From IMG/VR virus record IMGVR_UViG_3300024327_000007, positions 1 through 57,964 of that record: a stretch of 57,964 nt of DNA; one strand, given 5' to 3'. Positions within the stretch are counted from its first letter, which is position 1; each line of letters opens with the position of its first letter. The notes under the pieces are model-generated. The model saw only the letters and a list, made by a program, of their open reading frames with translations, was not told the DNA's origin and ran no database searches. Position numbers and translations under genes: made by a program. Shown here piece after piece: positions 3 to 21,333 of the stretch. The DNA is from a virus.

Positions 3-791
3 TACCTTGGTTATGAGCTGCCTGGCTCGCAAGGCGATCAAGGGATGCGTGGACCGCCAGAGCCTTTGCTTGGACCGCCAGAGCCTTTGCTTGGACCGCC
101 AGAGCCTTTGCTTGGACCGCCAGAGCAAGTAGCAGCAACTGTTAAAGTGGTTGAAGTTACAACAGAGCTGATACCGAAGCCACCAAAAAAACTAGCTGTC
201 CCGAAGGCAAAAGAGCCTGCGCCAATTACAATAGATTTTGGCTTTGAGTTTACGGGAAGCCTAAGCGTTAAAGATCACGTTGCGCCATCAATAACTATAG
301 AATCAAACAAAGTCGCTCCAGACCCCTTTTTCACGATCGATGGTGCTGATGGCGAACCTGTAGAACTTCAAGTTGACGACTTGCTGACTCAGCTTAAAAA
401 GAGTATTGGATTTGACGAATATTTGTTTGGTGGTAACTTTACTACCACTACTGGTGGAGCGCATAGAATTAACGAGAAGAACATTGAAGCATTAGTGGAA
501 GACGGCAGTGTCAAGCAACAATTAGTGCAGGAAATAAAAAAATTAATCCCTGTACCAAGCAAAGCCGGCCAGCTGTTGAGTGATTTTACTTTAAAGTTCA
601 AAGCTGCAGATATAGCTCTTGAATATTCCTTGGACTTAAGCAAGTTCTTAGCGGACGAAGCAGACTCTTTGTTAGATATTACATTTGAATACGAAGATTA
701 TGCGGAAGCTGAGGGCGATGAAGGTAAAATCCTGCTTATAGGAGGGGTTCTTTCTAAAGTAACCCTTTGGGTAAAATACGGTGTTACATGA
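3..791 (+). CDS. Collagen-like virion protein (5' end outside window)
   Basis: The reading frame is open to the left edge, so this is the C-terminal part of a longer protein. The first residues follow the collagen Gly-X-Y rule (GSQ-GDQ-GMR-GPP), which argues that the ATG at 45 is not the true start. The triplets then give way to a seven-residue GPPEPLL repeat and a Pro/Lys-rich linker (about residues 45-75 of the visible part). The remaining roughly 190 residues are acidic and look globular. I do not recognise that C-terminal domain. Collagen-like stretches are known in phage fibres and other trimeric virion proteins, so a surface or trimeric structural role is inferred. The gene ends in an ATGA overlap with a possible small ORF and lies upstream of the head genes. 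Confidence 0.7.
   Translation, partial: YLGYELPGSQGDQGMRGPPEPLLGPPEPLLGPPEPLLGPPEQVAATVKVVEVTTELIPKPPKKLAVPKAKEPAPITIDFGFEFTGSLSVKDHVAPSITIESNKVAPDPFFTIDGADGEPVELQVDDLLTQLKKSIGFDEYLFGGNFTTTTGGAHRINEKNIEALVEDGSVKQQLVQEIKKLIPVPSKAGQLLSDFTLKFKAADIALEYSLDLSKFLADEADSLLDITFEYEDYAEAEGDEGKILLIGGVLSKVTLWVKYGVT
51..126 (+). repeat. 21-bp tandem repeat in collagen-like gene
   Basis: Three perfect copies of a 21-bp unit starting ggaccgccagag (51-71, 72-92, 93-113) are followed by a 13-base partial copy to 126. Each unit encodes Gly-Pro-Pro-Glu-Pro-Leu-Leu. Because 21 bp encodes seven residues, the repeat keeps the reading frame but breaks the three-residue collagen phase. It looks like recent slippage or unequal recombination. 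Confidence 0.95.
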
Positions 792-871
792 AGTCTAACA
801 ATACTAAACCAAATTGGGCTATAGTCTGTGATGATGATTGTAGTTCTGAAGTAACTGTGGAAGGCTTTTAG
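788..871 (+). CDS. Possible 27-aa small protein
   Basis: An ATG at 788 overlaps the TGA of the preceding gene (ATGA) and opens a 27-codon frame that ends with TAG three bases before the next ATG at 875. It fills the gap between two genes exactly, as translationally coupled small genes often do. The product is acidic, with a Cys-Asp-Asp-Asp-Cys stretch near its middle. There is no strong ribosome site upstream, so translation would depend on coupling. I recognise no family. The frame could instead be chance, since the gap also carries the ribosome site (GGAAGG, 859-864) of the following gene. Confidence 0.35.
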   Translation: MKSNNTKPNWAIVCDDDCSSEVTVEGF

Positions 872-874
872 AAA

Positions 875-2536
875 ATGAGTTTAAAAGCAACAAGTTCTCA
901 ATTGCCAAAAAAAGAACCAGCTAAATATGCGTTATTCTTTGAAGATGACCTTTCGCAAATCAGCTCTCAGGATGGCATCTGGAGAGAAGAAATAAGAAGT
1001 GCGCTAATCAATTGGTGGAGACCCAACTTGATTCATTTGTTTATCCATCCTGGAAAGAACACAACGCACATAAGTGAGGCAAATTTTCTTACTGATAGCC
1101 GAGATGCTGCCAGTACTGAAGGTATTCTTTTTATACATCAAAAAATTAATAATTTTAAATTAACATATCATATTGTGCCTGGGTACACTGATCCACAGGG
1201 TACTCAAGTCCTAACAGACAGGCAATCTTTGTACTCTTCCATGCTTTTAGATTGGATGCCCAACTTATTCTTAATAAATGAAAGAGACGGGTGGGACCTT
1301 CCGCAAGCAGACAGCGAAAGAAATCTTCTTATATCTACCGAAGTAGCTATGAACGCCAACGCAGATGTTCTTTTTACTCCTCTTTATGCTGGCAGGGATT
1401 TGCTTCTCAGAATTGACTTAACGAACGTAAAAGTATTTCATGCAAAATGGCACAAACGTGGTCGTGGATGGATGACTTTGGCGCATGAACTATTTCATGT
1501 TTATCAAGTTTTAAATAACACTCTTGTGCATTTTTATGAAAGTTTTTTTGGTAGTCTTAAAGGTGAGACAAGTGACACGGCCGAAGACCATCTTTGGTTC
1601 TTTGAGGCTTCTGCTAATTTATTTTCTGGTGGAGGTATAGTTAGGCTTTTAGGAAAATTACTGCCAAAAAAATACACCCAGGACCAGTATGGATTTGATG
1701 AACTTATACTAGAGTATTCGTCAGAAGAAATGAGTGGTATTGTCGACTCTTATGTAGATTCGCATTATGCTAAAGAACATATTATCGACGATAAGGGGTA
1801 TTCGTTTGGCTATCTGGCGTTAGCTTTTTTACATAAAAAATTAATAGCTATCGGCTCGTCGTTTCAAGAACTTTTTCGAAGTTTAATTGAAACGACAAAT
1901 TTAGACGAAAGCCTCAAAGCCATATTTGAAAAAAGCGATAGTGAGGAAGTGTTTTCTTTTTCAGAGTTCCTAGAGGTGTTCTATGCTGAAGAAGGCAAGG
2001 CGTTTTGTAAGGAGTTTCTAAAGCATCATTCGGTAGGTTTGTCTACCGAAACTTTTGATGTAGGCACGGTAAAGAGTACTTATTTTGGTGAAAGTGGTTT
2101 GAAGTTGGACGAAGTGCTTCCTAGTACTTGGGCTGGGGGCGCTGAGCCTTACTATGGAACTCGCGACTTGCAGCAAAGCTTGGGGAAGATTAAGGGCTGG
2201 ATAAAAAAGCAATCAGCAGAGCACAAGCCAAATTGCATGATTTATATTTGTTCGATCGATATAAGCTTGCTGAATAAAAGCGAAGCTAAGCACTTCAAGA
2301 ATCTTGATACTATTAAGAGTGTTTATTGGATAAACATACGCCCTGAGTCAGAGCCTGTTGAGGAGCTTACTTTTGCGTCTATTGCAGATAATGTGAATTA
2401 CATTGAAGTGCCAGTATCCAAATTGGAAGCTACACTCAATTTGATACCTAGGCTTACCGATAGTAAAGAAACTAGAAGCAAGGTAGGGTACAATAACTTA
2501 AAAATTACACAGACTGTGAAAGCCAACTTGAGGTAG
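875..2536 (+). CDS. Putative zinc metallopeptidase (gluzincin-like)
   Basis: This 553-residue protein contains AHELFHVYQ, an HEXXH zinc-binding motif (His204, Glu205, His208). About 36 residues later WFFEASANL places Glu244 where gluzincins carry their third zinc ligand (E-x-x-A context). Downstream, YVDSHYAKEHI and YSFGYLALAFL (roughly residues 289-320) resemble the helical region that follows the active site in peptidase-MA-type enzymes. The C-terminal 150 residues are unrecognised. The start is supported by GGAAGG ten bases upstream. The gene sits directly before the portal, where a second protease class is unusual, since the typical prohead protease is encoded after the portal. It may be a packaged, ejected or maturation enzyme; that role is inference. 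No signal peptide is seen. Confidence 0.6.
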   Translation: MSLKATSSQLPKKEPAKYALFFEDDLSQISSQDGIWREEIRSALINWWRPNLIHLFIHPGKNTTHISEANFLTDSRDAASTEGILFIHQKINNFKLTYHIVPGYTDPQGTQVLTDRQSLYSSMLLDWMPNLFLINERDGWDLPQADSERNLLISTEVAMNANADVLFTPLYAGRDLLLRIDLTNVKVFHAKWHKRGRGWMTLAHELFHVYQVLNNTLVHFYESFFGSLKGETSDTAEDHLWFFEASANLFSGGGIVRLLGKLLPKKYTQDQYGFDELILEYSSEEMSGIVDSYVDSHYAKEHIIDDKGYSFGYLALAFLHKKLIAIGSSFQELFRSLIETTNLDESLKAIFEKSDSEEVFSFSEFLEVFYAEEGKAFCKEFLKHHSVGLSTETFDVGTVKSTYFGESGLKLDEVLPSTWAGGAEPYYGTRDLQQSLGKIKGWIKKQSAEHKPNCMIYICSIDISLLNKSEAKHFKNLDTIKSVYWINIRPESEPVEELTFASIADNVNYIEVPVSKLEATLNLIPRLTDSKETRSKVGYNNLKITQTVKANLR

Positions 2537-2540
2537 ATCT

Positions 2541-4034
2541 ATGAAAGCAAATGATTTTGAAGGAATTCTAAATGCAATCTCTAATAAAGATCGAAATGTT
2601 CCAATTCCTGGAGTGAATATTTCTGGCGTTAAAGTTAAAAAAGTAAACGGGCGAGCGCTATCTTACGCAAGTAGGCATAGAGGATCTTGGTTCAAGCCAG
2701 AGTATGATCTAACTGAAATACAGATAGCTCAAGATACGGATGCTTTTTTGTTCAAAGCGATACAAAAGAAAGTTCAAAGATTTGTATTGGCTGGATGGGA
2801 GTTTGTTGGCAACGATAAAGAGACAGTAAACTATATAAGAAGAAGAATAAAAGAAATAGAGACTGTTTCTGGTATGCCGTTTAATTTATTAATGACAGAC
2901 CTGGCGCATGACTTAATTAGGTATTCAAATTGTGCATGGGTTAAAAACAGAAATAGCGATGCCTCTACAGGGAAAGTCTTAGACAAGAATGGCAAGTCTG
3001 TAGAGCCTGTTGCTGGGTATTTTATACTTCCATTTGAAACTTTATGGTTCAAAGTGAAGAAAAACGGTGAGATTAAAAAGATCTTGCAGAAACAATTAGC
3101 AAGTGCAGAGAGCAAAGAGTTCTCACCTGATGATGTCATTCATTTCTACACAAATAGAAAAGCTGGGTTTACTATGGGAACACCTGAGCTACTTCCAGTA
3201 CTAGAAGACATTGCTCTGCTAAGAAGGCTTGAAGAAAACATCGAGGAGATGATCGATGCTAACTTGCACCCCTTGTATCACTACACGGTTGGCAATGATT
3301 TGATGCCTGAAAGATATGGTCCTGACGGAGTAAAGGAATCAGATTTGGTTCGAAATACGATTGAGTATATGCCTTCAGGTGGAATCTTTGTTTCAGATCA
3401 TAGGCACAAAATTGACGCTATTGGCTCCGAAGGTAAGGCGCTTAAAATCCAAGAGTACTTGGATTACTTCAAGAAGCGTGTGTACGCAGGTCTTGGTGTT
3501 TCAGCCATGGACATGGGTGAAGGTGATACTGCGAATAGAAGTACTGCTAATGCCTTGTCGAAAATTGCGATACAAGATGTAGAAGCCTTACAGAGAAATA
3601 TAAAAACTTTTATTGAAACTTATGTTATTTCAGAACTACTTTGTGAAGGTGGCTATGAAGAAGCAATGTTTGATAGCGACAGAATGGTTTACATTAAGTT
3701 CGGTGCGGTAGACAAAGAAGAGAAAATAAAGGTAGAGAACCAAATCGTACAGTTGTGGTTAAACAATTTGATAAGCGAAACAGAGGCAAGAACAAAGCTG
3801 GGAGAGCGCCCCCTGACTGAGGAGGATGTAAAGAAGTTACACTCGACGTTAGCGCAAGAGCGAATAGTGAAGAGTTCAACCGAATTAAACACTTCTAATA
3901 ATATTTCAAAACCAGCAAATCAGCATGGTGAAAGATCCTCTCCGAAGCTAGGCGAAGACAGCATAAGTTTGTTTGAGAAGATAAAAAATAGCAATAATGT
4001 TGCTGATGTCTTGAAAACACTTGAAAACTACTAA
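2541..4034 (+). CDS. Portal protein
   Basis: This 497-residue protein has the hallmarks of phage portals: a segment FSPDDVIHFYTNRK (about residues 194-207), then GTPELLPVLEDIALLRRLEE, and a later KKRVYAGLGVS with a Gly-rich loop before NRSTANALS. Portals form the dodecameric ring at one capsid vertex through which DNA is packaged and to which the neck binds. The length is normal for the family. It starts four bases after the preceding gene behind a GAGG ribosome site and lies directly upstream of the protease/scaffold gene, the classical order. The C-terminal 60 residues are polar and probably flexible. The large terminase would be expected upstream, outside the window. Confidence 0.88.
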   Translation: MKANDFEGILNAISNKDRNVPIPGVNISGVKVKKVNGRALSYASRHRGSWFKPEYDLTEIQIAQDTDAFLFKAIQKKVQRFVLAGWEFVGNDKETVNYIRRRIKEIETVSGMPFNLLMTDLAHDLIRYSNCAWVKNRNSDASTGKVLDKNGKSVEPVAGYFILPFETLWFKVKKNGEIKKILQKQLASAESKEFSPDDVIHFYTNRKAGFTMGTPELLPVLEDIALLRRLEENIEEMIDANLHPLYHYTVGNDLMPERYGPDGVKESDLVRNTIEYMPSGGIFVSDHRHKIDAIGSEGKALKIQEYLDYFKKRVYAGLGVSAMDMGEGDTANRSTANALSKIAIQDVEALQRNIKTFIETYVISELLCEGGYEEAMFDSDRMVYIKFGAVDKEEKIKVENQIVQLWLNNLISETEARTKLGERPLTEEDVKKLHSTLAQERIVKSSTELNTSNNISKPANQHGERSSPKLGEDSISLFEKIKNSNNVADVLKTLENY

Positions 4035-7457: not shown

Positions 7458-8789
7458 ATGGCATTTAAAATGACCGACGGAACGCGCTTAGAGCTTCCTA
7501 ACAATAAAAAGGCTGCTGCACGTTATGTAGCAGATATGATTTCTAACAGAGGCGCTCTTCCTGATACGGAAGAGACGGTAACTTGGAACGAGTTTGTTAA
7601 TGTAATCTCTCCTAAGAACCGTGACGCAATTTCATCTTCTGAAATCGCACCTCTCCTTCAACAATCTATGGAGATTCTCATTCGTGAGCCCGTAGAGCCT
7701 CGTATGGTTATCACTCCACTATTTAGTCGTGTACAAGCAAAAGGTTTGAATACTCAAATTCTTACTGGAGCTATGGGTGCAGTTTATGCTTCCGACGTAC
7801 AGGAGTCAGGCACCTATCCTGAGGTTAACTTCCAAATGGGTGGCGCTGTTTCAACAGCTTACATCGGCAAGAGTGGTATCGCTGCTTCTTTCACCGATGA
7901 GGCACTTCGTTATAGTACTTTTGATATCATGGCTAAAAACCTTGAGCTCATGGGTAACGCAATGGTTCGCCATAAGGAGCAAAAAGCTGTCGCTTTCCTT
8001 AAGCAACTTGGAACCGCACTCTTTGATAACCTTCAACCTTCTAGTTCACTTTACGGTGTATGTAGTGGCCGTGGGGTAACTGGCGCAGCATTGAAGGCAA
8101 ACGGCTCTATGACTATGGAGAACCTGATGCGCGGTATGGCTCATATGGCAGAGGAAGGCTTCAGCCCTGACACTCTACTTATGCATCCATTATTTTACTA
8201 CACCTTCTTGCAGGATCCTGTCCTCAAGACCATGATGCTTGCACATGGTGGAGGCTCTATCTTCAATATGTACACTGGTGATCCAGGAAGTCAAGATCCT
8301 TGGAGCAACGGCGCACTAGGTGGTCGTGGACCTTCTCGTGGTGTTCGTACTGTGAATCCTCGTGGAATTGGTACTTCAGGTGTTGGAACTGGTGGCGCTG
8401 CTACTTCCGTTGAAGGAAGAAGCCAGAACGCTACCTCTGCTCCAAAAATACCTTCGTACTTCCCATTTGGATTCCAGATCATTGTTTCACCTCTTTGTCC
8501 TTATGATCCTGAGAGTGAGACTGGTGACATCTTCCTTCTTTCAAGTGGTAATGTTGGTTTCCATCTTGTTGATGAAGAGGCTACTACTGTCGAGTGGCGC
8601 GATGAAGGTACTGAGACTGTCAAGGTTAAGATCCGTGAGCGTTACGGCTTTGCTGTCGCACATGAGGGTCAAGGCGTTGGCGTTTTCAAGAACGTTAAGC
8701 GTGTTGCAAACGAATATGACGGTGCAGTGAATGCTGCTGTTGGTGATCTTACTGACATAACAGAAGCAGACGTAAAGGCTAATCTCTAA
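7458..8789 (+). CDS. Major capsid protein (probable HK97 fold)
   Basis: A 443-residue protein immediately downstream of protease/scaffold and followed by a terminator. After a polar N-terminal arm it contains REPVEPRMVITPLFSRVQ, then a helical stretch (DEALRYSTFDIMAKNLELMG, near residues 148-167) like the long spine helix of HK97-type capsid proteins. Residues about 275-325 form a Gly/Ser/Arg-rich flexible loop. Codon use stands out: arginine is almost always CGT or CGC, while neighbouring genes favour AGA/AGG, as expected for the most abundant virion protein. The N-terminal segment may be removed by the upstream protease. It assembles the icosahedral shell. Confidence 0.85.
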   Translation: MAFKMTDGTRLELPNNKKAAARYVADMISNRGALPDTEETVTWNEFVNVISPKNRDAISSSEIAPLLQQSMEILIREPVEPRMVITPLFSRVQAKGLNTQILTGAMGAVYASDVQESGTYPEVNFQMGGAVSTAYIGKSGIAASFTDEALRYSTFDIMAKNLELMGNAMVRHKEQKAVAFLKQLGTALFDNLQPSSSLYGVCSGRGVTGAALKANGSMTMENLMRGMAHMAEEGFSPDTLLMHPLFYYTFLQDPVLKTMMLAHGGGSIFNMYTGDPGSQDPWSNGALGGRGPSRGVRTVNPRGIGTSGVGTGGAATSVEGRSQNATSAPKIPSYFPFGFQIIVSPLCPYDPESETGDIFLLSSGNVGFHLVDEEATTVEWRDEGTETVKVKIRERYGFAVAHEGQGVGVFKNVKRVANEYDGAVNAAVGDLTDITEADVKANL

Positions 8790-8826
8790 GAGATAGTTCA
8801 TTAACGTAAAAAGCACTTGTAACGAG

Positions 8827-8857
8827 AGGGGGAGTAGACGTAAGTCTTCCCCCTTTT
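8827..8857 (+). terminator. Rho-independent terminator after capsid gene
   Basis: AGGGGGA pairs with TTCCCCCT (8827-8833 with 8847-8854), with an inner GAC-GTAA-GTC hairpin, followed by a TTTT run. It lies 37 bases after the capsid stop and is the only hairpin in the window with both a strong GC stem and a T run in an intergenic position. Confidence 0.8.
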
Positions 8858-8899
8858 GTCGTTGTGGGGGACGAATTTTTAGAATTAAAGGCCATTATT

Positions 8900-8956
8900 A
8901 TGGAAAGCTTTAATTTAGAACATAAAGAAGAGTATAATTTAAAGCTAGAACGATAA
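8900..8956 (+). CDS. Possible 18-aa micro-ORF
   Basis: ATG at 8900 opens an 18-codon frame ending TAA at 8954-8956, with AAAGG about eight bases upstream. It encodes a charged Glu/Lys-rich peptide. It lies in the only sizeable intergenic gap, between terminator and neck genes. It is too short to judge by composition and may be chance or a leader peptide. Confidence 0.15.
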   Translation: MESFNLEHKEEYNLKLER

Positions 8957-8987
8957 GGTGGCTGAATGCAGACAAGTTACCTATAAT
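8933..8987 (+). promoter_or_regulatory. Candidate promoter(s) for neck/tail unit
   Basis: Two perfect TATAAT hexamers (8933-8938 and 8982-8987) lie between the capsid terminator and the first neck gene. Neither has a convincing TTGACA-type box 16-18 bases upstream, so a phage-modified polymerase or activator would be needed. The second reads TATAATAA, close to a T4-like late box. Position after a terminator makes a new start here likely; the exact site is uncertain. Confidence 0.4.
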
Positions 8988-9015
8988 AAACTCAGTCTTT
9001 AAAAGGAGCCCCCCA

Positions 9016-16490: not shown

Positions 16491-16495
16491 GGAGG
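16491..16495 (+). promoter_or_regulatory. Ribosome site deciding start of tube paralogue
   Basis: GGAGG lies five bases before the ATG at 16500. An upstream in-frame TTG at 16482 would put this site inside the gene, so 16500 is preferred. The 75-bp gap before it also holds an AT-rich run (TATATAAAATATT, 16464-16476) that could be a weak late promoter. Confidence 0.7.
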
Positions 16496-16499
16496 TTCT

Positions 16500-18254
16500 A
16501 TGTCTGGGTCGACATCTTTGTCGCAATCATATAGTTCATTTTCTGGTGTTGATATTCGAGTTATCATTAATGGTGCTCAAGTGGGTAGCATGCAGTATGT
16601 GAGCTATATGATTCAGCGTGAAAAAGCGCCGAATTATATTATGGGATCAGTAGATCCCGTTTCCTTTGCTAGAGGTAAGCGTGGCATCAATGGGATAATA
16701 AGGGGACTATTATTAGATGTAGACCCTCTCTATATGAAATCTTTTGATGGGGAAAAAGCGCTTTTGGATAAAGACGAGCTCTTTCTAAGAGAGCTCGACG
16801 AAAAGAAAACCGTTCAGCATCAACAGACAACCCAGCCTGTATTAAGAAGAAGACACGCTCCAGAAACTAGAGGCAAGTGGGAATATATATACGACGTGTT
16901 CATTTCCTTTAAGGTACTTCCCGGTGGCAGTTTTGGTGTCGCTGCAGAGGAATGTGTGAAAGGAGCTATTGTTGGAGTCATGGAAACGGTAGCAGTTTCA
17001 ATACTTTCAGGAGGGCTTGCAGCTGTACCTGCTTTTGTCAATTTGGTTAAAATAGCGATAACTGATTGCATAGGGGCAGTAGCGGAAAGTTTAATTTATA
17101 GTGGTGGTTTCATCATGATGGCTGAAGACTTTGTAAACAGTTTTCTTCATTATGAGGACGCCTATGAGGATCATCTGAAATACATAGTTGAGTGGAATAA
17201 AAAAGTAGACGCGTATAACGCAACACTTAAACCCACTGTAAGAACGATAAGCAAAACGGTAAACAGTAAGTCTTTGACTAATTATGCATTCCTGCAAGAT
17301 GAAAAGTATGACTTATCTAACTTAGGTAATAATTATGTTGTGGCTAAGCCAGAGTACCTAGACCAAATATTGCCTTTTGATATTGTTATCGTGGCTGTTA
17401 ATGAGTACGGCCAGTCGGCTCAGATGCGTATCTATGGATGTGAGATATTATCAGTTAATACAGAGTTAAGTATAGATGCGATGACTCTGCCTTATTCATT
17501 GAATTTCGTAGCAAAGACGATTTTACCTTGGAGGAGCTTCGATCTGCATGGATCTGAAGGGTCTGGCCCTGGTGGTTCAAGTATCAAGCAAGTTCCTGAG
17601 TCTCGTTACCCTGGCAGTATTTTAACTTCAGAGCCAGGTTACCTAAACATTGGGGACGAACTAAGTGAGGATCAAGTAAATGAACTTTTTGATGATGACC
17701 ATGTCTTCGAAGACGATGAGGACGATGACGGAGATGGAATTTTAAATCAAGATGACGCTCTTCCAGGGAATCCTAATGAATCTCAAGATACTGATGGCGA
17801 CGGGGTTGGAGACAACCAAGATCCTGATGACGATAACGATGGTCTTTTAGATGGAGATGACCCGAACCCGAACATTCAGGATGATCCAGCAAGAGACGAT
17901 ACGGGTGGCCATGATGGCATTGAAGAACCTGTCGATACTGATGGTGATGGAATCCCAGATGAAGATGATGACTTTCCATTTGATCGAGACAATGATAGCA
18001 TTATTGATGAAATGGACCCTCAGCCTGATGTTCCAAGAGAGGTTGATGACGATGACTTGACGGGTGGCCATGATGGCATCGAAGAACCTGTTGATTCTGA
18101 TGGCGACAATTTCCCAGACAATGTAGACTCCGACGATGATAATGATGGCATCCCCGACGATATAGATCCAGACCCTTTAGTTCAAAACGACCCAACAAGC
18201 GATGACTTGACGGGAGGCCATGATGGTGATGAAGCGGTACCAGATGAAGAGTAG
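16500..18254 (+). CDS. Tail-tube paralogue with hydrophobic insert and Ca-binding tail
   Basis: From the ATG at 16500 the product is 584 residues. Its first 80 residues and residues about 268-355 are close copies of the two blocks of the preceding tube protein (SGVDIRVIING; QREKAPNYIMGSVDP; EYGQSAQMRIYGCEIL; TILPWRSF). Three things differ. The middle loop is replaced by a long, partly hydrophobic helical segment (about 142-210, with VGVMETVAVSILSGGLAAVP). It is followed by a charged helix. From about residue 398 the protein is an Asp-rich tail with DTDGDGIPDEDD-type loops, the thrombospondin type 3 pattern that binds calcium in other proteins. It may form a specialised ring, tail tip or collar; that is inference. 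Confidence 0.7.
   Translation: MSGSTSLSQSYSSFSGVDIRVIINGAQVGSMQYVSYMIQREKAPNYIMGSVDPVSFARGKRGINGIIRGLLLDVDPLYMKSFDGEKALLDKDELFLRELDEKKTVQHQQTTQPVLRRRHAPETRGKWEYIYDVFISFKVLPGGSFGVAAEECVKGAIVGVMETVAVSILSGGLAAVPAFVNLVKIAITDCIGAVAESLIYSGGFIMMAEDFVNSFLHYEDAYEDHLKYIVEWNKKVDAYNATLKPTVRTISKTVNSKSLTNYAFLQDEKYDLSNLGNNYVVAKPEYLDQILPFDIVIVAVNEYGQSAQMRIYGCEILSVNTELSIDAMTLPYSLNFVAKTILPWRSFDLHGSEGSGPGGSSIKQVPESRYPGSILTSEPGYLNIGDELSEDQVNELFDDDHVFEDDEDDDGDGILNQDDALPGNPNESQDTDGDGVGDNQDPDDDNDGLLDGDDPNPNIQDDPARDDTGGHDGIEEPVDTDGDGIPDEDDDFPFDRDNDSIIDEMDPQPDVPREVDDDDLTGGHDGIEEPVDSDGDNFPDNVDSDDDNDGIPDDIDPDPLVQNDPTSDDLTGGHDGDEAVPDEE
17691..18251 (+). repeat. Asp-rich TSP3-like coding repeats
   Basis: This stretch encodes about 187 residues dominated by Asp, with D-x-D-x-D-G loops such as DTDGDGVGDNQD, DDDNDGLLDGDD and DDDNDGIPDDID. 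A larger unit beginning TGGHDGIEEPVD recurs at 17901 and 18060, with a degenerate copy (TGGHDGDE) at 18210, giving spacings of 159 and 150 bases. DNA identity around the unit starts is high, pointing to internal duplication. Confidence 0.9.
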
Positions 18255-18263
18255 GAGTATCAA

Positions 18264-19205
18264 ATGAGTTCAAACGCTGACTACACATATAGCTATTCTG
18301 GATCAGACTGTGATGCTTATGCTTTCTTTCCTGGAAGTGAAGGGTTACGGGATCATATAACAGATACATTAGAGGCACAGAGAAAATCTCAGATTTCATT
18401 TGAGGGGAATTTGGCTCAGCCAAGATCACCAATAAGTATACCTGAAGTTGGTCCGCCGCTTTTCCCACTTCCTATAAACTCAACGCAACAAATAAAAACT
18501 CGAGATAGCTTAAAAACTTCATTTGAAACTAATGCAAACTTTTTCTCTCCCGTCAAAATGACTCAAATGGCTACGATATCCATTTCGATACATGAAGCCA
18601 AGTCTCCCGTAAGGAGAATTGGCGAAAGAGGTGTCTCTGGATACACTCGTGGTATTAGAACTATTGCTGGAACTATAGTGTTTTTAGTAATAGAAGATCA
18701 TCCATTAAGGATGTTGGCCGCAAAAGATCCTGCTAACATTTATAGTAATCTTGTTGGTTGGTCCAGAGACTTAACAACAAAAGGTGTTGGTTCTGGACAT
18801 GGTAAGAACAAGATTAAATTTGATAATAAAATATCAACATTAATATCTCCAATGAATATAATGCTAAGGTATCAAACTGAAGTAGCTAGGAATGGTCAAG
18901 CAGACCCAGGAGCATCAATGATGCTAGAGGGTGTTGAATTCGTAAACGAAGGTATTGTGACTTCTGTTAATGATATGGTAACTGAAGTAGTCTGCCAATT
19001 TGTAGCTCAGGATATACGCCCTTTTACAGATTTAAATAAAAGCAGTAGTAATGAGATAATTAAAGCGTATGAAAATAACAAGGGCAGCCAACTTTATGAG
19101 CCGTACTATAGAAGCTTAATTAATAGGCATAAAAACAATCAGCCTGCTAGGACTCCGAATCAATTTGGAAGTGTAGAGGTGTTGCTTGATGAATACGGAG
19201 CTTAA
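18264..19205 (+). CDS. Third tail-tube-like protein
   Basis: A 313-residue protein with distant similarity to the two upstream tube proteins. It keeps the sequence context RGIRTIAGTIVFLVIEDHPL (about residues 133-152), matching the RGKRGIAG block, then ends the barrel with MLEGVEFVNEGIVTSVNDMV. The first 90 residues are different, polar and Pro-rich. A ribosome site (TAGGAG) overlaps the previous stop region. Extra tube-like proteins in myophages often cap or initiate the tube at the baseplate or neck end. That role is inferred from similarity and position. Confidence 0.5.
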   Translation: MSSNADYTYSYSGSDCDAYAFFPGSEGLRDHITDTLEAQRKSQISFEGNLAQPRSPISIPEVGPPLFPLPINSTQQIKTRDSLKTSFETNANFFSPVKMTQMATISISIHEAKSPVRRIGERGVSGYTRGIRTIAGTIVFLVIEDHPLRMLAAKDPANIYSNLVGWSRDLTTKGVGSGHGKNKIKFDNKISTLISPMNIMLRYQTEVARNGQADPGASMMLEGVEFVNEGIVTSVNDMVTEVVCQFVAQDIRPFTDLNKSSSNEIIKAYENNKGSQLYEPYYRSLINRHKNNQPARTPNQFGSVEVLLDEYGA

Positions 19206-19207
19206 CC

Positions 19208-19678
19208 ATGAGTTTTTATAATTACGAATATTTTTCAGGTGCTAATGTAAACATAGCTTTTAGTAATGCAGATTCAGGTGATCATAAATATCAGGACGTT
19301 CTAGAGTGTGCAGGAATAAGCTATAGTATTCAGAACTCTCAGCAACCAATATACGGGTATGCATCTACGCAATTCGATGCCATGCTCCCTGGAAGGGAAA
19401 TTGTTCAAGGAAATTTTGTTGTAAATTATGTCAAACCAGATTATATCTTAACAGACATACTAAAAGAACCAGCTAATACGATGGGAAGCCCCGTGATGTC
19501 TTATAATGGTTTCTTAACAAGTGCATTTGATATTAAGGTTAGCTTTGGAGATCAAAGCGACATAATAATTAAAACTTGTTATTTGATTTCACGCGGGCAA
19601 ACTGTACAAATATCCGAACAAGTTATATTAGAAGAATATGGTTTTTTAGGTAGATCATTAGAATACAAAAACAAATGA
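19208..19678 (+). CDS. Fourth small tube-like or tail-completion protein
   Basis: The 156-residue product starts two bases after the previous gene. It has a segment QQPIYGYASTQFDAMLPGRE (about residues 44-63) followed by VQGNFVVNYVKPDYI, echoing the layout 'P-x-Y-x-x-G ... G-x-x-x-x-G' of the tube proteins, then VILEEYGFLGRS at the end. It is short and predicted beta-rich. A role as tube initiator or tail completion protein fits its place between tube genes and tail chaperones. The family link is by eye only. Confidence 0.45.
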   Translation: MSFYNYEYFSGANVNIAFSNADSGDHKYQDVLECAGISYSIQNSQQPIYGYASTQFDAMLPGREIVQGNFVVNYVKPDYILTDILKEPANTMGSPVMSYNGFLTSAFDIKVSFGDQSDIIIKTCYLISRGQTVQISEQVILEEYGFLGRSLEYKNK

Positions 19679-19684
19679 GGTTAC

Positions 19685-20605
19685 ATGGCGCTTAAAGGCA
19701 AGAAGTTAGATTCAGATTTAGTAATGTTTGGAGAGCCTTTAAATGAAAAAGCTCTTAACGCCTTACAAAGAAGTTCTCCTACTGCCGAGCAGATTATAAA
19801 AAGTCTGCCTCCTACGGCATTTATTCCAATACCTGAGGAGACGCAGAAAGAAAAAGATCAGCGATTGGAAATTGAAAAAGCAGCCTCTGCTAAAGACGAG
19901 GTGCTTTCAGCTGAAACTGCTAGGAAAGATCGATTGAAAAAGAAAAAGGATGCCGCAATAAAAAAGCGTAAAGCGCGCTTAAGTCGGAAGAAACCAGTAG
20001 AACCGCCTCCTCCGCCACCACCAAAAGTGGAGGAGGAAATACCCAGTCAAACTATTATTAAAACTTTAATTGAAGAAAATATAAATATTGAGGAGAAGAT
20101 TTCTATGAATCTTGATGATGAATTAAAAGCTCTTGAAGAAAACATTAAGCCAAAAGTTGCAGAGCCTGTGGTGGAGCCACAACCAGTAGAAGAACCTACT
20201 GTTCAAACAGATTTAAAAGATCAAATTTTAGAACTGCTTGAGGGCGAAGACAACCCTCCAAGCTTAGAATTGATATCGGCTTGGAAAGAAGCGTATGGGA
20301 AAAATGGAATTCATGTAATGGCTTTTGGAGAAGGCGATGTCTATGTTTATCATCATTTAACTCGTGGCGAGTGGAAGAAGATAAAAGAGATAATGAATAA
20401 GATGAGGGAGAGTGAGAATCCAGAAGAAGTGGAAGAGAAGCTAAAGGAAAAAGTTGTACTATACTGTATTCTCTGGCCGAGTGTAAATGAGAGATGGCTT
20501 GAATATTGTAAGGCGGGAATATTGGATTCGCTTTATCAAATGATTCTTTTGAACTCAGGTTTCTTAACTCCACAACAAGCAATGCTTTTAACGACACAGT
20601 TATAA
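19685..20605 (+). CDS. Probable tail assembly chaperone (first)
   Basis: The 306-residue protein lies between tube genes and the giant tail genes, the standard position of tail assembly chaperones. Residues 1-120 are charged, with an Ala/Lys-rich helix and a run of eight prolines (around 105-116). After an acidic linker, the conserved part (about 198-306) contains YVYHHLTRGEWKKIKEIMNK and VVLYCILWPSV, resembling chaperone domains in large phages. GAGG overlaps the previous stop. No ribosomal frameshift to the next gene is apparent: its frame has a TAG nine bases before its own start. Confidence 0.5.
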   Translation: MALKGKKLDSDLVMFGEPLNEKALNALQRSSPTAEQIIKSLPPTAFIPIPEETQKEKDQRLEIEKAASAKDEVLSAETARKDRLKKKKDAAIKKRKARLSRKKPVEPPPPPPPKVEEEIPSQTIIKTLIEENINIEEKISMNLDDELKALEENIKPKVAEPVVEPQPVEEPTVQTDLKDQILELLEGEDNPPSLELISAWKEAYGKNGIHVMAFGEGDVYVYHHLTRGEWKKIKEIMNKMRESENPEEVEEKLKEKVVLYCILWPSVNERWLEYCKAGILDSLYQMILLNSGFLTPQQAMLLTTQL

Positions 20606-20619
20606 TAAGGTAGCGTGCA

Positions 20620-21333
20620 ATGGATTTTAAAAAAATCTTAGAATCAGATTGCGACCTATATTCAATTGCATTAGATGAGTTCTGCGTATTTGAGTTCAGG
20701 CTACTGAAGATAAAAGAATTTAATTTCTTCAGTAAGTTAATAAATAGCGGACTGCCAGAGTTGATTGTACATGACGAAGTGTTCAACCTATGCTACCTGG
20801 GTAGGCATGATTACTTGCCATCTAATCTTCCGGCTGGGTATACCATCTCAACTGGAAGAATGATCTACAAGCTTTCTGGAGAAAACGAGGGAGAGGAATT
20901 CTTACTGGCCATCGCCAAGGAAAGAACTTTAAACCCTCTGGACAGCATATATGAGCATATGCGATGTACAGTATTTAGTGGCTTTAGTTCGATGACACCA
21001 AAGTGTATAGACAATATGACAGAGAAGCAGTTTATTAAAAACTTTGTTGCTGCAGAAAACTTATTGTCTAAAACTAAACCTGGGTTTCAAAGACTTGATC
21101 TAGAAAAAATATATAAAGAATTGTATAATATTCAAGATGAAGAAACTAAAGAACAAGAAGAAGATCCAGCTAATTCTGAAAGTATATATGTTAATGATGC
21201 TAGTATGCTAGAAAAAGAATTAGGTTATTGGGAGATGAGAGCTGCTGAAAACGAATTCTTAAAAGAAGAAATGACTAGAATCAATAAGGAGAAGCTGAGT
21301 AAATCAGATTTACAATCCTTAGACAGGAGATAG
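20620..21333 (+). CDS. Probable tail assembly chaperone (second)
   Basis: This 237-residue protein follows the first chaperone after a 14-base gap. Its N-terminal part has FEFRLLKIKEFNFFSKLIN (about residues 25-43), similar in layout to the segment VYHHLTRGEWKKI in the previous protein. It then has LPAGYTISTGRMIYKLSGEN and a helical region ending in a Glu/Lys-rich coiled coil. Many tailed phages need two chaperone forms, often joined by a frameshift; here they would be separate genes. AAGGT precedes the ATG. A tape-measure chaperone role is inferred from position. Confidence 0.45.
   Translation: MDFKKILESDCDLYSIALDEFCVFEFRLLKIKEFNFFSKLINSGLPELIVHDEVFNLCYLGRHDYLPSNLPAGYTISTGRMIYKLSGENEGEEFLLAIAKERTLNPLDSIYEHMRCTVFSGFSSMTPKCIDNMTEKQFIKNFVAAENLLSKTKPGFQRLDLEKIYKELYNIQDEETKEQEEDPANSESIYVNDASMLEKELGYWEMRAAENEFLKEEMTRINKEKLSKSDLQSLDRR

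Follow-up and report, generated by a model that had tools for sequence, protein, structure and literature searches.

In most known phage tail tubes the beta2-beta3 loop makes the main ring-to-ring contact, and in myophage tubes the alpha-loop and the beta4-beta5.1 loop face the sheath; extra C-terminal domains have been reported to be absent from contractile tubes, since they would clash with the sheath (PMC8718954). The tube initiator of phage Mu, gp43, joins a tube-like domain to a helix-rich domain and is embedded among the wedges (PMC11915804), and the virions of Bacillus phage 0305phi8-36 contain gp142, a protein with an additional domain (PMC2147016). The annotation of Acinetobacter phage ME3 was made by homology to 0305phi8-36, and in Bacillus phage KLEB27-3 three genes in a row are annotated as encoding tail tube proteins. 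Here we describe a member of the lineage of these three phages, represented by a viral DNA stretch of 57,964 nucleotides (IMG/VR record IMGVR_UViG_3300024327_000007, positions 1 to 57,964; "the window" below means this whole stretch). Between its main tail tube gene, t1, and two further tube-fold genes, t3 and t4, it carries a tube paralogue of 584 amino acids (aa), t2, with a predicted helical insert and an Asp-rich tail resembling thrombospondin type 3 (TSP3) repeats. A specialised tube ring is the most likely reading of this protein.

The t2 open reading frame (ORF) is genuine: its ATG at 16500 is preceded by GGAGG, and its stop codon lies at 18252 to 18254 (Table 1). Promoter-like sites near the gene were in no excess over chance. 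In a tblastn comparison within the window, t2 residues 2 to 95 aligned with t1 at 64% identity and residues 263 to 354 at 62%; these are the two t1-like blocks from which a preliminary description of the locus had proposed a duplicated tail tube gene, and by this comparison t2 is a tandem paralogue of t1. The middle of the protein is a 179-residue insert, the t1 counterpart of which is a shorter Gly/Asn-rich loop. Searches of Pfam, NCBIfam, and the PDB with the whole t2 sequence returned nothing useful. When t2 was modeled alone with AlphaFold, using 49 aligned sequences, a tube-type beta-sandwich core was obtained with predicted local distance difference test (pLDDT) values mostly of 80 to 93, the insert and tail being weaker (overall pLDDT, 64; predicted template modeling score, 0.42). 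Foldseek matched this model with the tubes of contractile systems in the PDB, namely PVC, AFP, T4, and Hcp (best E of ~1e-3 to 5e-3; match probability near 1), and in a viral library with the ME3 tube homologue (E = 1e-11).

The surfaces of the core have been conserved unevenly. Thirty-seven of 60 positions conserved in t1 proteins are retained in all t2 proteins, including a REK..Y..GS.DP.S..RGKRGI segment that we equate, by strand order, with the beta2-beta3 loop. Eleven of the 60 are lost in all t2 proteins, and as 8 of these fall within residues 318 to 335, one face of t2 appears to have been altered. The segment lost corresponds to NEGSGFSIDD.V, a highly conserved stretch of t1, and its partial retention in t3 makes t2 the odd one out.

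The insert follows the alpha-helix region of the tube fold and was modeled both in context and alone; each time it formed a beta-hairpin stalk bearing four helices (pLDDT of 58 for the isolated model). A fold search of the PDB with the insert, the query being a low-confidence model, gave no match better than E = 1, and sequence searches turned up no insert homologues beyond t2 itself. Cys152 and Cys190, together with a number of Gly/Ala positions, do not vary among the four t2 proteins. At the same site, around residues 96 to 180, the t1 proteins of the window's clade have a partly conserved Gly/Asn-rich loop of their own (ALN.ANNET...).

The preliminary description had also likened the Asp-rich DxDxDG loops of the C terminus to TSP3 repeats, a likeness that the sequence analysis bears out. 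The tail (residues 396 to 584) has 6 DxDxDG-type loops versus a mean of 1.2 in composition-preserving shuffles (P = 0.0005) and contains TGGHDG three times, within internal DNA repeats ~159 and ~150 bp apart; the portion of t2 C-terminal to a PWRSF motif has a net charge of -82. A profile built from the tail repeats of three phages recovered COMP (PDB code 3FBY; E = 4e-10), an OmpA-family protein (5WTL; 2e-7), and thrombospondins (0.013 for thrombospondin-1 to 4.5), and down to E = 10 its PDB matches were solely to TSP3 calcium-repeat proteins. By these sequence criteria a calcium-binding-type tail is well supported. We term it TSP3-like, rather than a Pfam member, because as a single sequence it scores below the curated Pfam cut-off for PF02412 or PF18884 (TSP_3 PF02412, E = 2.4 and 8.4 bits versus a cut-off of 25). 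A pattern scan of viral contigs for TSP3-type loops recovered 52 other proteins of 201 to 2037 aa, none of which has a tube domain. An ORF with TSP3-like loops (L144, positions 3 to 3053) gives a weak match to the virion RNA polymerase family of phages (E = 5e-5). In the literature searched we found no phage tube protein with TSP3-like repeats or with the combination of domains seen in t2, in agreement with what the preliminary description had supposed. TSP3 repeats in general are disordered without calcium and rigid with it, which is the basis of the switch considered below.

Our searches recovered t2 from only four distinct phages: the window, L006 (=L007), L008, and L009; their clade also includes five phages without it. 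The insert is present in all four, and the acidic tail in three (the window, L006, and L008); since the L009 protein has the insert alone, the tail is not essential to t2 as such. An assembly artefact can be ruled out as the source of the tail, for the different genomes L006 (=L007) and L008 have t2 with the same tail type at the same gene position. When tube cores are compared in a tree, the t2 proteins of the four phages group together (100/99), and their clade falls within one of 13 rows that includes the window's t1 group (98/91). Their branches are longer than those of t1, and the length of the L009 t2 branch makes its exact position less certain. Sheath, connector, t3, and t4 sequences yield a tree in which the phages with the acidic tail are united, all three in a single clade (100/100), and in which the sister of L009 is L010, a phage without t2. 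By this pattern, t2 originated by duplication near the base of the clade, and some lines later lost it or passed it sideways; the acidic repeats are either one sub-clade's own feature or were lost in L009. TGGHDGD, found three times in the window's tail, also occurs close to the C terminus of the L009 t2 protein, where the acidic repeats are lacking; growth of the tail by amplification of a unit around this motif is thereby suggested, though not proved.

We infer from these observations that t2 most likely assembles into hexameric rings, one or a few in number, which would stack on the t1 tube by means of the ring-to-ring loop that t2 has kept. The insert site neighbours the sheath-facing alpha-loop, and an outward-facing insert and acidic tail would clash with the sheath; a ring bearing them would therefore belong at a sheath-free or sheath-modified end of the tail. 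The likeliest site would be distal, with the t1 tube on one side and initiator-type rings of t3 and t4 on the other; this placement is favoured because of the gene order t1-t2-t3-t4 and the precedent of Mu gp43. A second precedent is 0305phi8-36 gp142, by gene position the t4 equivalent. The TSP3-like repeats, found in one sub-clade, would be disordered during assembly in the low-calcium host cytoplasm and after release would become stiff, calcium-filled rods serving as a tether or arm. A duplicated, specialised tube subunit that forms a low-copy ring at the distal tail end and bears a TSP3-like calcium arm is in our judgment the best account of t2, and it has about an even chance of being right. 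A dedicated calcium-switched ring, with arms limp in the cell and rigid in calcium-rich water that arm or hold the tail end until a host is met, is a stronger proposal that we consider doubtful.

Several points weigh against this account. The phages with t2 are known here from genes and predicted structures, not virions. The t1 proteins of the same clade have a loop of ~85 residues at the insert site; the sheath may thus tolerate bulk there, and the argument that the ring must be sheath-free is weakened. Any ring that t2 forms is not essential, since close relatives such as L010 lack the gene. The initiator gene of Mu comes after the tape-measure gene, unlike t2. Single-sequence tests for TSP3 were weak, as noted above. 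Finally, the sheaths of the three acidic-tail phages are 974 to 975 aa long, with ~97 extra residues (442 to 538) that are missing from most of the sister phages L009 to L014 (sheaths of 804 to 898 aa), so that t2 may lie beneath a sheath that has been modified.

The last of these observations bears on the view that t2 is a minor component among the t1 subunits, mixed with them in the same rings or forming an occasional ring, and that it decorates the tube surface as C-terminal Ig/FN3 domains do in siphophages. Its closest sequence is t1, the stacking loop is retained, the t1 proteins of the clade are likewise bulky at that loop site, and the extra sheath segment could be making room; the sheath difference may, however, reflect common descent only. 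We hold such mixing to be unlikely. Somewhat better placed, though still rather unlikely, is a ring at the proximal end beside the tail terminator, with the insert and tail decorating the collar. There the sheath would be avoided equally well, and a kept stacking loop with one other conserved face lost is what would be expected of an end ring; the authors of the phage G study, moreover, list neck or baseplate binding for its second tube-like protein (PMC8570332). The t2 gene, however, lies on the baseplate side of t1, adjoining t3 and t4.

Two further possibilities concern the appended domains themselves. The preliminary description had seen a partly hydrophobic helical segment in place of the middle loop and suggested that it might touch a membrane, as would a tip whose insert enters the host membrane upon contraction. 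A predicted helical insert does replace the loop, but its hydrophobicity (residues 142 to 210) reaches a transmembrane call solely in the window and L009, where the best 19-residue Kyte-Doolittle windows score 1.85 and 2.11, respectively; L006 and L008 have no 19-residue window of at least 1.6 and have charged residues in those helices, so that a conserved hydrophobic helix is absent. The conserved Cys, Gly, and Ala positions suit a packed bundle, and the models, at moderate confidence, place the helices on a beta stalk. Membrane contact is thus not supported, and a membrane-active tip is the least probable of the explanations considered. Scarcely better are the chances of a lumenal role, in which the acidic tail would be a polyanionic plug or DNA-like spacer inside the tube, unrelated to calcium. 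Its very strong negative charge would suit such a role, but the matches of its repeats are specific to TSP3 calcium-repeat proteins and do not extend to acidic proteins at large; known tube lumens are themselves negative (PMC8718954), which would make a negative tail unfavourable there, and the lumen is occupied by the tape-measure protein.

Table 1. Coordinates of t2, its parts, and the adjoining tail genes in the window
Feature	Coordinates	Strand	Basis
Tail sheath, 975 aa	12569-15496	+	phrog_16991 tail sheath, E = 1e-7; ME3 and KLEB27-3 sheath annotated at same place
t1, main tail tube protein, 300 aa	15522-16424	+	PHROG 9206; 58 relatives in viral contigs; KLEB27-3 counterpart annotated as tail tube protein
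GGAGG ribosome-binding site, 4 nucleotides 5' of ATG	16491-16495	+	Direct reading
t2, tail tube paralogue of 584 aa, carrying the insert and the acidic tail	16500-18254	+	Reading frame, within-window tblastn, structure model
t2 residues 1-95, N-terminal half of tube fold, with conserved REK..Y..GS.DP.S..RGKRGI loop	16500-16784	+	64% identity to t1, conserved columns, model strands
t2 residues 96-274, insert: beta-hairpin stalk 99-111/246-258 with helices 126-135, 145-169, 177-200, 204-242	16785-17321	+	Models, alignment
t2 residues 275-350, C-terminal half of tube fold	17322-17549	+	t1 identity, conserved columns
t2 residues 396-584, Asp-rich tail of predicted TSP3-like calcium loops	17685-18251	+	Loop count, profile matches
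Three TGGHDG-containing units, 159- and 150-bp spacing	17901-18250	+	Motif and DNA repeat scan
t3, third tube-fold gene, in nearly all relatives	18264-19205	+	
t4, fourth tube-fold gene, in nearly all relatives	19208-19678	+	
Two genes at tail-chaperone position	19685-21333	+	Position alone, matching 0305phi8-36 gp143/gp144 (PMC2147016) and ME3_33/34

The genes around t2 run in the order sheath, t1, t2, t3, t4, and chaperone-position genes, and the sheath gene upstream of t1 and t2 marks the tail as contractile. Homologues of t1 were found at 58 loci in viral contigs, with matches among named phages to ME3, KLEB27-3, and Moorella phage MTATph1; neither t1 nor t2 was found in bacterial genome contigs. 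Searches of BFVD matched A7KUR5 and A7KUN1, which may be 0305phi8-36 proteins. The three adjacent tube genes of KLEB27-3 indicate that an array of t1, t3, and t4 is the norm in the lineage and that t2 is an extra fourth copy. The label "major head protein" on PHROG 9206 and on the ME3 and MTATph1 tube proteins appears to be wrong, the true major head protein matching window positions 7458 to 8789. Homologues of t3 and t4 differ enormously in size, reaching 1056 and 924 aa, and have large domains without a Pfam match; long examples lie at L037:8668-11067, L049:8734-11901, L056:9819-12590, L059:9475-11919, and L061:9884-12607. The tube-type ring proteins of the lineage often gain domains. Other genes also occur among the tube paralogues: in L034/L035 a 317-aa ORF with cysteine-pair motifs, HNH-type endonuclease-like, lies between the tube gene and t3 (L034:8769-9719), and in MTATph1 (L068) a gene annotated as S-adenosylmethionine decarboxylase (8651 to 9007) is flanked by two tube paralogues. 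Elsewhere in the window, a 21-bp unit is repeated 3.9 times inside the first ORF (positions 46 to 126).

Set beside known systems, t2 is a clear case of tube-gene duplication with new, probably outward-facing domains in a contractile tail, and it bears on the statement that appended tube domains do not occur in such tails because of the sheath. ME3_30 and KLEB27-3 gp026 to gp028 share the family and gene order of the window's tube genes, but ME3_30 (228 aa) and gp026 (191 aa) are short at the insert site, with neither a helical insert nor a TSP3-like tail, and neither phage has a t2-like fourth copy. The initiators of Mu, E217, Pam3, and XM1 have a tube-like domain, as t2 does, and Mu gp43 resembles t2 in adding a further, large domain (PMC11915804). 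Gp43, however, follows the tape measure (gp42) in gene number and has a LysM domain, whereas t2 duplicates the main tube protein, with its extra domain inserted in a loop and a TSP3-like tail, and lies upstream of the chaperone-position genes. Given this gene order we do not class t2 as a tube initiator but as a possible functional analogue of one, although order relative to the tape measure may not be applicable to this lineage, t3 and t4 being on the same side. The siphophage tubes lambda gpV, T5 pb6, and SPP1 combine, like t2, a tube fold with a C-terminal appendage; t2 has no Ig fold and belongs to a contractile phage, where such appendages have been reported absent (PMC8718954). Phage G encodes two tube-like proteins, gp179 and gp180, between its sheath and chaperone genes; the role of the second is unknown, and at 242 and 189 residues they are too short for the insert and tail (PMC8570332). 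Both are Foldseek matches of t2, which would allow tests of the roles of extra tube-like proteins, the question left open for phage G. The tail shares with COMP (3FBY) and the OmpA-family protein (5WTL) the pattern DxDxDGxPDxxDPDDDNDGIPDxxDPxP, and it differs from known TSP3 repeats in its unusual TGGHDG units, its single-sequence score below the Pfam TSP_3 cut-off, and its position on a phage tube protein. Were its calcium loops to work, an environmental switch would be built into a phage injection machine. Tube paralogues are already known, as are tube rings that bear extra domains; what t2 adds to them is a tail of TSP3-like repeats on the tube protein of a contractile phage, which we did not find described.
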